This document shows positions 44,679-46,501 of a stretch of 51,750 nucleotides of DNA, one piece after another. The position numbers and the translations under genes are program-made. The DNA lies in assembly GCA_029850515.1 (NCBI GenBank), contig JARCRW010000025.1, positions 1-51,750 of the forward strand, given 5' to 3'. How positions within the stretch are numbered: the stretch's first letter is position 1; each line of letters opens with the position of its first letter. The stretch is from Nitrosotalea sp. Lineage in GTDB: Archaea; Thermoproteota; Nitrososphaeria; Nitrososphaerales; Nitrosopumilaceae. The notes beneath the pieces were generated by a model. That model was not told the origin of the DNA, did not search any database, and saw only the letters and a list, made by a program, of their open reading frames with translations.

Positions 44679-44690
44679 TATATTTATTAA
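44679..44690 (+). promoter_or_regulatory. TATA box of the ilvBN-leuAB operon
   Basis: TATATTTATTAA; the transcription start is expected near 44710, about 100 bases before ilvB, leaving an untranslated or leader region unlike the leaderless genes nearby. Confidence 0.6.
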
Positions 44691-44720
44691 CAATTTTAGA
44701 GAGAAAAATTACAGATAAGT

Positions 44721-44783
44721 ATGGTAGAAATAGACTCGACAAGCATTTCAAGTATTTTGTTGCTAGTCGAGCTTGTGCTGTAA
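44721..44783 (+). CDS. candidate branched-chain amino acid leader peptide
   Basis: 20 codons, MVEIDSTSISSILLLVELVL, with 11 of 20 residues Ile, Leu or Val and the run ILLLVELVL just before the stop. It lies between the ilv promoter and ilvB, starting about 10 bases after the expected transcription start. In bacteria such leaders sense charged Ile/Leu/Val tRNA during attenuation. Translation is inferred only from composition and position. Confidence 0.45.
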   Translation: MVEIDSTSISSILLLVELVL

Positions 44784-44797
44784 AATACAGCAATTTT
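44735..44797 (+). promoter_or_regulatory. candidate attenuator hairpins before ilvB
   Basis: First stem: CTCGAC-A-AGCA (44735-44745) with TGCT-A-GTCGAG (44761-44771), inside the leader peptide gene. Second stem: GCTGTA (44777-44782) with TACAGC (44786-44791), covering the leader stop codon and followed by AATTTT. ACAG...AAG (44711-44719) could pair with CTT...CTGT (44772-44781) and so prevent the second hairpin. The mechanism is inferred. Confidence 0.4.
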
Positions 44798-44812
44798 CGG
44801 AGATAGAAAATT

Positions 44813-46501
44813 ATGGAAAAAATATCAGGTGCTAGGTCTTTGATGATCGCTTTGGAAAAAGAAGGTGTGGAAATTGCCTTTGGGTTACCGGGAGGTGCAA
44901 ACTTGCCAATTTATGATGAGCTCTACAAGAGCAACATCCGTCACGTGTTGGTAAGACATGAACAGTCTGCTTCACATATGGCAGATGGTTTTGGCAGAGT
45001 GAGTCGAAGACCAGGAGTATGTTTTGCAACATCAGGACCAGGTGCAACAAACATTGTTACAGGAATTGCAACAGCCCAAGCAGACTCGGCACCAATGGTT
45101 GCAATCACTGGCCAAGTTCCTTCAAAGATGATAGGACGTGACGCATTTCAAGAAAGTGATATTATCGGAATTACAAACCCCATAGTGAAATATGCATTCC
45201 AGCCAATGAGTCCAACAGAGATTCCAGAGGTAGTAAAAAAGGCATTTTACATCGCATCAACAGGAAGACCAGGTCCTGTATTGATAGACATTCCAAAGGA
45301 TGTACAACAAAACGAAGCAGAGATTCATTTTCCTTCCGAAGTAAAAATTAGAGGATACCATCCATGGGTCGACCCAGACATAACAGCAATTGAGAGAGCA
45401 ACAGAGATGTTACTATCTGCAGAAAGGCCGATAATTCTTGCAGGTGGTGGAGTGATAATATCAAGCGCGTTTGCAGAGCTCCAGTCAATCGCAGAGTTAC
45501 TCATGATACCAGTTGTAACTACATTCAAAGGAAAGGGATCATTTCCAGAAAACCACCCTCTCTCACTCGGACCAATAGGAATGCATGGTCATGCGGAGGC
45601 AAACAAGATGATGACAGAGGCTGACTGCGTTCTTGCATGTGGCTCCAGGTTTTCTGACAGGTCTGTTGGCACATTTGAAGAGTTTGAGAGAAACTTGAAA
45701 ATAATACACATGGATGTAGACCCTGCAGAGATAGGAAAGAACCAAACCACAAATGTAGCAGTAGTCGGAGATGTAAAGACATCACTTAGAATCATGGTAA
45801 AGATGCTAATCCAAAAAGCAATCAAACGCAATGGAGAGAGTGCGTGGGGAAAAAGAGTAAAGGAGACAAAGGAATACTATAGGGAAAACCTCAAGATTCA
45901 TCCACACCCATTAGCAGCATCCAAAGTTCTTAAAAAATTAAGAGAGGTTTTACCTGCGCAGTCAATTGTAACTACCGAAGTGGGACAACACCAAATGTGG
46001 GCCTCGTTATTCTTTGATGTAATACACCCAGGAACATTTTTCAGTTCTACAGGTCTTGGAACTATGGGCTGGGGATTCCCAGCTGCAATAGGTGCCAAGG
46101 CAGCAAAACCAGATGTCCCAGTGCTGGACATAGCAGGGGAGGGAAGTTTTAACATGACAGAGAATTCACTTGCAGTATCAGTGCTAGAGGACTTGCCGGT
46201 CATAGTGCTTTTGCTAAATAACTTTACACTCGGAATGGTGGCCCAGTGGCAGAGAACGTTTTACGACAGGAGAATGATTGGAGTAGATCTCAAGAATTGT
46301 CCAGATTATGTCAAAGTAGCAGAAGCATACGGAGCACAGGGAATACGCGCCCAGACAATTGATGAAATTGGAAAGGCAGTCCAGACAGCTTTGAAGAGCA
46401 ATGTAGCAACTGTCATAGACATACCAATTGACCCGCAAGAAGACGTGCTACCATTTGTTGCTCCAGGGACATCTCTCAAGGACATGATCTTACCATCATA
46501 G
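44813..46501 (+). CDS. ilvB: acetolactate synthase large (catalytic) subunit
   Basis: 562 aa. Catalytic Glu in RHEQSASHMADGFGR, FAD/substrate region SGPGATNIVTGIATAQAD, and the thiamine-diphosphate motif written GEGSF...NN rather than the usual GDG...NN. It makes acetolactate and acetohydroxybutyrate, the first common step of Val/Ile/Leu synthesis. Overlaps ilvN by one base. The leader region upstream suggests control by branched-chain amino acids. Confidence 0.94.
   Translation: MEKISGARSLMIALEKEGVEIAFGLPGGANLPIYDELYKSNIRHVLVRHEQSASHMADGFGRVSRRPGVCFATSGPGATNIVTGIATAQADSAPMVAITGQVPSKMIGRDAFQESDIIGITNPIVKYAFQPMSPTEIPEVVKKAFYIASTGRPGPVLIDIPKDVQQNEAEIHFPSEVKIRGYHPWVDPDITAIERATEMLLSAERPIILAGGGVIISSAFAELQSIAELLMIPVVTTFKGKGSFPENHPLSLGPIGMHGHAEANKMMTEADCVLACGSRFSDRSVGTFEEFERNLKIIHMDVDPAEIGKNQTTNVAVVGDVKTSLRIMVKMLIQKAIKRNGESAWGKRVKETKEYYRENLKIHPHPLAASKVLKKLREVLPAQSIVTTEVGQHQMWASLFFDVIHPGTFFSSTGLGTMGWGFPAAIGAKAAKPDVPVLDIAGEGSFNMTENSLAVSVLEDLPVIVLLLNNFTLGMVAQWQRTFYDRRMIGVDLKNCPDYVKVAEAYGAQGIRAQTIDEIGKAVQTALKSNVATVIDIPIDPQEDVLPFVAPGTSLKDMILPS

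Follow-up and report, generated by a model that had tools for sequence, protein, structure and literature searches.

What is the function of a short open reading frame, more than half of whose codons specify isoleucine, leucine or valine, that lies directly before ilvB in an archaeal genome? The frame is found in a 51,750-nt stretch of Nitrosotalea DNA (the window), which is contig C25 of a genome of 1.70 Mb. A preliminary description of the locus likened it to the attenuators of bacterial ilv and leu operons. Comparison with related genomes strongly supports one half of that proposal, a branched-chain leader peptide before ilvB, while the other half, a switch of the bacterial type, is not supported. 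In many ammonia-oxidising archaea and their relatives, the leader and hairpin before the first gene for leucine, valine and isoleucine synthesis resemble the kind of amino-acid sensor that bacteria are known to use.

The leader locus in Nitrosotalea

The order of the parts can be read in the window: a TATA-like box, a 20-codon frame, two stem-loops and then ilvB, all on the forward strand. The TATA-like box, TATTTATTAA, occupies positions 44681–44690 and its centre is 35 nt 5′ of the leader ATG, implying a transcript start shortly upstream of that ATG; of the window genes, most of which looked leaderless in the preliminary description, 5 of 43 have a perfect TATA-like match no more than 120 nt away. 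The leader frame (44721–44783) encodes MVEIDSTSISSILLLVELVL, and 11 of its 20 codons (55%) specify Ile, Leu or Val, with a run of them at the end, as first described. Both stem-loops of that description are also present in the sequence. The first lies within the frame (44735–44771, with 44735–44745 pairing with 44761–44771), whereas the second, GCTGTA-AAA-TACAGC (44777–44791, arms at 44777–44782 and 44786–44791), contains the TAA stop codon (44781–44783) and is directly followed by AATTTT. A weak AU helix, AATTTT/AAAATT, spans 44792–44812 and encloses in its loop a GGAG (44799–44802) that had not been remarked on before and is likely to be the ribosome-binding site of ilvB; this helix is outside the consensus fold discussed below. 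The ORF at 44813–46501 is ilvB, encoding the large subunit of acetolactate synthase; it has relatives in protein searches and is 98% identical in two Candidatus Nitrosotalea records (L297 and L298). We take the ORFs 3′ of ilvB to be ilvN, a leuA-like and a leuB-like gene. Elsewhere in the same genome, a 100-base stretch (L002, G000:C4:8652-8751) shows a 73% match to ilvB DNA and is possibly a paralogue.

Could this be a chance hydrophobic frame in AT-rich DNA? Upstream regions were scored by the maximum number of Ile/Leu/Val codons in the last 10 codons of any short frame ending no more than 160 nt from ilvB, and the expectation comes from applying this maximum to dinucleotide shuffles. Shuffled versions of the window region average 3.5 of 10, which lends some support to chance; the region itself scores 8, a value reached by 0/200 shuffles. 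Among the window genes other than ilvB, 0/41 score at least 7 and one scores 6 (42 genes tested), and 0/19 upstream regions of ilvD from the same 20 genomes reach 6. These negative controls, together with the excess over shuffles in many genera described below, mean that chance can be practically dismissed. The RNA from 44730 to 44800 also folds more stably than its shuffles (z −3.53; 1/200 equally good).

The preliminary description had proposed that conservation of the frame be checked in relatives. Within the genus the frame is kept throughout: in each of the 36 readable genomes it starts with ATG, is exactly 20 codons long, ends in TAA or TAG and lies 26–32 nt 5′ of ilvB. The set comprised 37 Nitrosotalea genomes, with ilvB located by protein search in 35 and its start in G010 added by DNA search; G016 gave no match by protein or DNA search. 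When 37 distinct sequences, from this genus and its sister genus g25, are aligned, several gaps fall 3′ of the leader frame and none within it. In 31 distinct frame sequences, premature stops are absent from frame 0; in the other two frames, 31 and 6 of the sequences contain one. The first half of the leader differs between two clades of the genus (for example, MTKVDSTSISSILLLVELVL and MKLGGSASISGILLLVDLLL), and a few substitutions within the run lead to Pro, Gln or Thr. Synonymous changes make up a share of 0.34, against 0.28 expected; the coding signal is thus weak, and an additional constraint on the RNA may be the reason.

Is the RNA structure conserved as well? Over the 37 distinct sequences, the proportion of paired cells is 93.0% for helix 1, 96.3% for helix 2 and 84.8% for helix 3. 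Changes in helix 1 are one-sided only and helix 2 is nearly invariant. A single pair has changed on both sides, and 217/500 shuffles do equally well; the search for compensatory base changes that had been suggested for these relatives therefore yielded none beyond chance. The helices of the genus show conservation rather than covariation. The consensus fold contains helices 1 and 2 together and lacks helix 3; both there and in the fold of the window, helices 1 and 2 form jointly and are not mutually exclusive.

The near-invariance of helix 2, the palindromic nature of GCTGTA/TACAGC and the weak synonymous signal would suit another reading, in which conservation reflects a DNA operator, or an RNA bound by a protein or ligand, and the frame is incidental. 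However, post-stop sequences are entirely unlike between families and yet the frame and its run persist. No Rfam family matched the window at gathering cut-offs, and a search of 20 loci with E as high as 0.5 was likewise without a match. An operator or binding element is therefore improbable.

Distribution across the order and beyond

How far does the leader extend beyond the genus? The survey covered 173 ilvB upstream regions from 172 genomes in 16 families of the host order, with not all matches taken. A score of at least 7 is found in 95/173 regions, as compared with 3.1 expected from shuffles; without the genus Nitrosotalea the count is 59/137 (2.8 expected), and with one random region per genus it is 22/52 (0.9 expected). 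At a score of at least 8, 12/52 regions remain when one is taken per genus, against 0.1 expected. Thus, the conservation in relatives continues outside the genus: 13 of the 16 sampled families have a score of at least 7, namely f1 (64/100), f3 (1/2), f4 (4/4), f6 (1/1), f7 (2/2), f8 (5/25), f9 (2/6), f10 (3/7), f12 (2/2), f13 (6/6), f14 (3/8), f15 (1/1) and f16 (1/1), and the remaining three are f2 (0/6), f5 (0/1) and f11 (0/1). Three of the f1 misses are wrongly cut regions that do carry the leader. The sequences diverge across the order, as in the leaders MSFSLTAPFVGLLVELVL, MINPVAASSILLLEVLY, MRGGAETGRRLSVQVVLLVLNVLPLVVLL and MSHNVAAVSGAFRPSPVVIAASLILVIILLL; the recurring features are the run at the stop, the location upstream of ilvB and, in many cases, a stem-loop next to the stop. 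Judged by sequence comparison, the branched-chain leader before ilvB is real and widely conserved.

The leader is missing in some lineages: f2, most of f8, and the genomes G170, G112 and G226. In these last three, which belong to genus g27, the frame has apparently been lost and the stretch just 5′ of ilvB still resembles that of relatives. Genus g8 of f8 (G043, G077, G085, G115, G142, G160, G172 and G183) has a 25-codon frame 33–39 nt 5′ of ilvB in 8/8 genomes; the run is weaker (for example, ending FLLL at the stop), and this is possibly a decayed leader. In the f2 genomes G037, G075 and G091 (loci L106, L176 and L177), the frames before ilvB are Met-rich and not Ile/Leu/Val-rich. One genome of the survey, G084, has two ilvB copies (L120 and L189), and in both cases a leader with a score of 7 or 8 lies upstream.

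Outside the host order, 39 of the 40 regions fetched were scored and three reach 7. Two are leader-like: G401 (family f53, score 9) and G293 (f33, score 7, TTG start). The third, G339 (score 8), was not counted, being a GTG frame 134 nt from ilvB. Did the leader descend with a bacterial ilvB? This was rejected: among 76 usable ilvB loci, 11/16 from Nitrososphaerota score at least 7, and only 1/60 from bacteria and methanogens does so, probably by chance (L349, a 10-codon TTG frame). The bacterial and methanogen control is partial because many of these ilvB genes directly follow ilvD. No relative was found in the viral contigs searched, and no match in the plasmids searched. Cognate leaders before other biosynthetic genes were also sought, and none was convincing before trpE (16 loci) or hisG (18 loci), where script-set gene starts are rough in several cases. 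A candidate Trp leader, an MGG..W frame in 7/16 trpE loci, was rejected since by eye it overlaps the probable GTG start of trpE.

Which features do the leaders share? A set of 118 leaders from 37 family-genus groups was defined by a score of at least 6, a position 20–90 nt 5′ of ilvB and an ATG start; two frames with a TTG start and three leaders recognised by eye were added. Over the final 10 codons, with one leader per group, Leu accounts for 39.2%, Val for 20.8% and Ile for 10.8% (a total share that is raised by the selection itself), whereas Phe (1.6%), Met (1.4%) and Ala (2.7%) are scarce. This scarcity bears on the idea that the frame encodes a small hydrophobic peptide with a function of its own, for example in the membrane, and lies before ilvB by coincidence. 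The hydrophobic end and the good conservation of residues within the genus are consistent with such a peptide. Against it, the N-terminal halves differ between genera, lengths vary, and the frame always accompanies ilvB and not ilvD, in addition to the shortage of other hydrophobic residues, so that a free-standing peptide is improbable. The Ile/Leu/Val share peaks at codons −3 (0.97) and −2 (0.92), counted from the stop.

Of the 118 leaders, 103 have a TATA-like box scoring 7 or 8, at a median of 31 nt 5′ of the leader (interquartile range 27–34; motif only). In 46/118 regions, a TATA-like score of 7 also occurs 18–40 nt before ilvB, which makes an internal promoter possible there. The segment after the stop is often structured: its median folding z is −1.49, with z of −1 or below in 22/37 groups and −2 or below in 12/37. 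Several genera of the host's own family have only weak structure here (g24 −0.4, g27 −0.3, g57 −0.5, g52 −0.1, g49 +0.3). In small family alignments, pairs changed on both sides number 3/16 in f13, 2/13 in f9, 1/6 in f8 genus g38, 6/10 in f10 (12/50 cells unpaired) and 3/11 in f6/f7 (7/33 unpaired), with none in g22 (7 pairs) or f4 (7 pairs); the use of one alignment both to predict a structure and to count its changes favours such pairs.

A possible mechanism and its output

A conserved frame, its run, its position, a frequent structure beside the stop, promoter-like spacing and a link to ilvB all emerge from the comparison. Sensing of Leu-, Val- and Ile-tRNA charging by a ribosome is consistent with the run and its adjacency to the stop, with the structure found there and with the association with ilvB, and a leader-peptide attenuator of this kind is probably the best explanation of the locus. 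Transcription would begin just 5′ of the 20-codon frame. We infer that a ribosome translates the leader during RNA synthesis and that a shortage of charged Leu-, Val- or Ile-tRNA makes it stall on the run of these codons at the stop. The footprint of the stalled ribosome would cover or melt the stop-codon stem-loop, and the ilvB gene cluster would be expressed. With ample supplies of these amino acids, the ribosome would complete the leader and leave, the stem-loop would form and ilvB expression would drop.

Is this compatible with the RNA folding? With a modelled ribosome whose A site is at codons 17–21 of the window leader (G000), post-stop pairing falls from 0.66 to 0.40–0.49; at codons 12–16 it stays at 0.57–0.62 and the hairpin remains largely formed. 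Pairing falls in the models of G002, G178 and G042 too, and of the 11 genomes modelled, several show little or no fall. The strongest conservation, at codons −2 and −3, would fit a drop in pairing when the ribosome is at the last codons.

What does not fit is a switch of the bacterial type. The preliminary description had suggested that an alternative pairing with the 5′ end (TTACAG with CTGTAA) could block the second hairpin, and it is found in only 4/32 aligned sequences of the genus. A more general pairing between the start of the leader and the post-stop segment is striking in some Nitrosopumilus-like genera and was set aside, as z is −2 or below in only 4/37 groups. There is thus no conserved antiterminator pairing in either set. 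A T-run of at least five between the stop and ilvB is present in only 22/118 leaders. Directly after the helix, at least five T in 10 nt occur in 6/37 groups, and the T fraction is 0.37 as compared with 0.33 overall; the first helix of the minimum-energy fold is uninformative for placing the 5′ end of the hairpin. In the window, there are 0 terminator-like sites between 44000 and 45500. The rarity of the 5′ pairing and of T-runs, together with the coexistence of helices 1 and 2, is why the bacterial-type part of the proposal is not supported.

Which step, then, does the leader ribosome control? The same sensor might have a translational output, with the leader ribosome opening or blocking the start site of ilvB, or reinitiating at ilvB after the nearby stop. 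The gap from stop to ilvB is short (26–83 nt in the selected leaders), a terminator tract is absent, many leaders have a ribosome-binding-like motif 3′ of the hairpin, and in G161 the start site is more open with a ribosome in the run (about 0.6–0.7, against 0.33 when free). However, the modelled accessibility of positions −15 to +3 of ilvB changes little or inconsistently in most of the 11 genomes, and it falls in G051. Translational output is a less likely alternative, and premature ending or pausing of transcription, helped by a factor such as FttA/aCPSF1, is slightly favoured over control of ilvB translation. In the portions of the literature consulted, archaeal termination is described as using poly-U and aCPSF1/FttA (PMC8116511), and mutual exclusion of the ribosome and FttA has been proposed (PMC11616081); a ribosome-gated, factor-dependent end of transcription at the ilvB leader is therefore plausible. 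It is tempting to speculate, tentatively, that the leaders represent an ancient archaeal type of amino-acid attenuation, shared by most of the families sampled in the order and by two more beyond it. Its control codons would lie against the stop, and its stop-adjacent hairpin would act without a U-tract or antiterminator, probably through factor-dependent termination or another ribosome-gated step.

Relation to known leaders

Which known system does the archaeal leader resemble most? The ilv, leu and trp attenuators of enterobacteria have a leader peptide with control codons for the products of their own pathway, and this is shared by the archaeal leader. In contrast to theirs, the archaeal run abuts the stop, the hairpin starts at the stop and there is no U-tract terminator. 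T-box leaders, which likewise sense tRNA charging before amino-acid genes, differ in that the archaeal leader has its codons in a short frame and no Rfam match. As for the features of a classical attenuator, a conserved frame of pathway residues before the cognate operon and a promoter motif 5′ of the leader are found; a hairpin with a U-tract terminator and a mutually exclusive antiterminator pairing are not. Because these last two defining features were looked for and are missing, the leader is not classed as a classical attenuator; our verdict is that it would work like an ilv attenuator, outside the classical family.

The nearest described kind is the ilvB leader of actinobacteria, which are bacteria, whereas the present host is an archaeon. 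In the excerpts of the two reports used here (PMC1262725, PMC11857589), it too is a short frame of Ile/Val/Leu codons before ilvB that overlaps a hairpin; there, the hairpin is accompanied by a poly-U run, in contrast to archaeal leaders, most of which have no U-tract. Transcription of ilvBNC in Corynebacterium glutamicum is described in these excerpts as starting one nucleotide from the start of the leader, much like the spacing inferred for the archaeal leader, and as being governed by terminator, antiterminator and anti-antiterminator hairpins, whereas archaeal leaders have no conserved alternative pairing. The excerpted text also states that codon changes in a similar ilvB leader of Streptomyces coelicolor were without effect (PMC1262725), which counts against the attenuator reading. 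The actinobacterial LEU element before leuA, as presented in the same excerpt (PMC1262725), is another Leu-codon leader with structured RNA directly 5′ of the gene and no terminator stressed; in that element, base pairing between the Leu run and the Shine-Dalgarno box gives a pseudoknot-like arrangement, which is not seen in the archaeal leaders. In the open-licence literature covered in part, with subscription papers mostly outside its scope, no case of an archaeal leader-peptide attenuator was found. If the proposal holds, bacteria are not alone in using a leader-peptide ribosome to sense amino acids, branched-chain synthesis in ammonia-oxidising archaea has a regulatory handle, and the leaders constitute a class of short reading frames under conservation.

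Other families of the phylum (f18, f34, f35, f43, f47 and f49) have a different element upstream of ilvB, at loci L210–L215, L222, L229, L230, L231, L234, L235 and L241. No Rfam match was found at E 0.5 in those of the loci that were searched. The element consists of a short frame, for example one beginning ATGAGGGATCGTCACCTCAATA or ATGAAGGGTGAATATACCCTCCAA, which is not Ile/Leu/Val-rich, and a hairpin of the GAGGG/CCCTC type.
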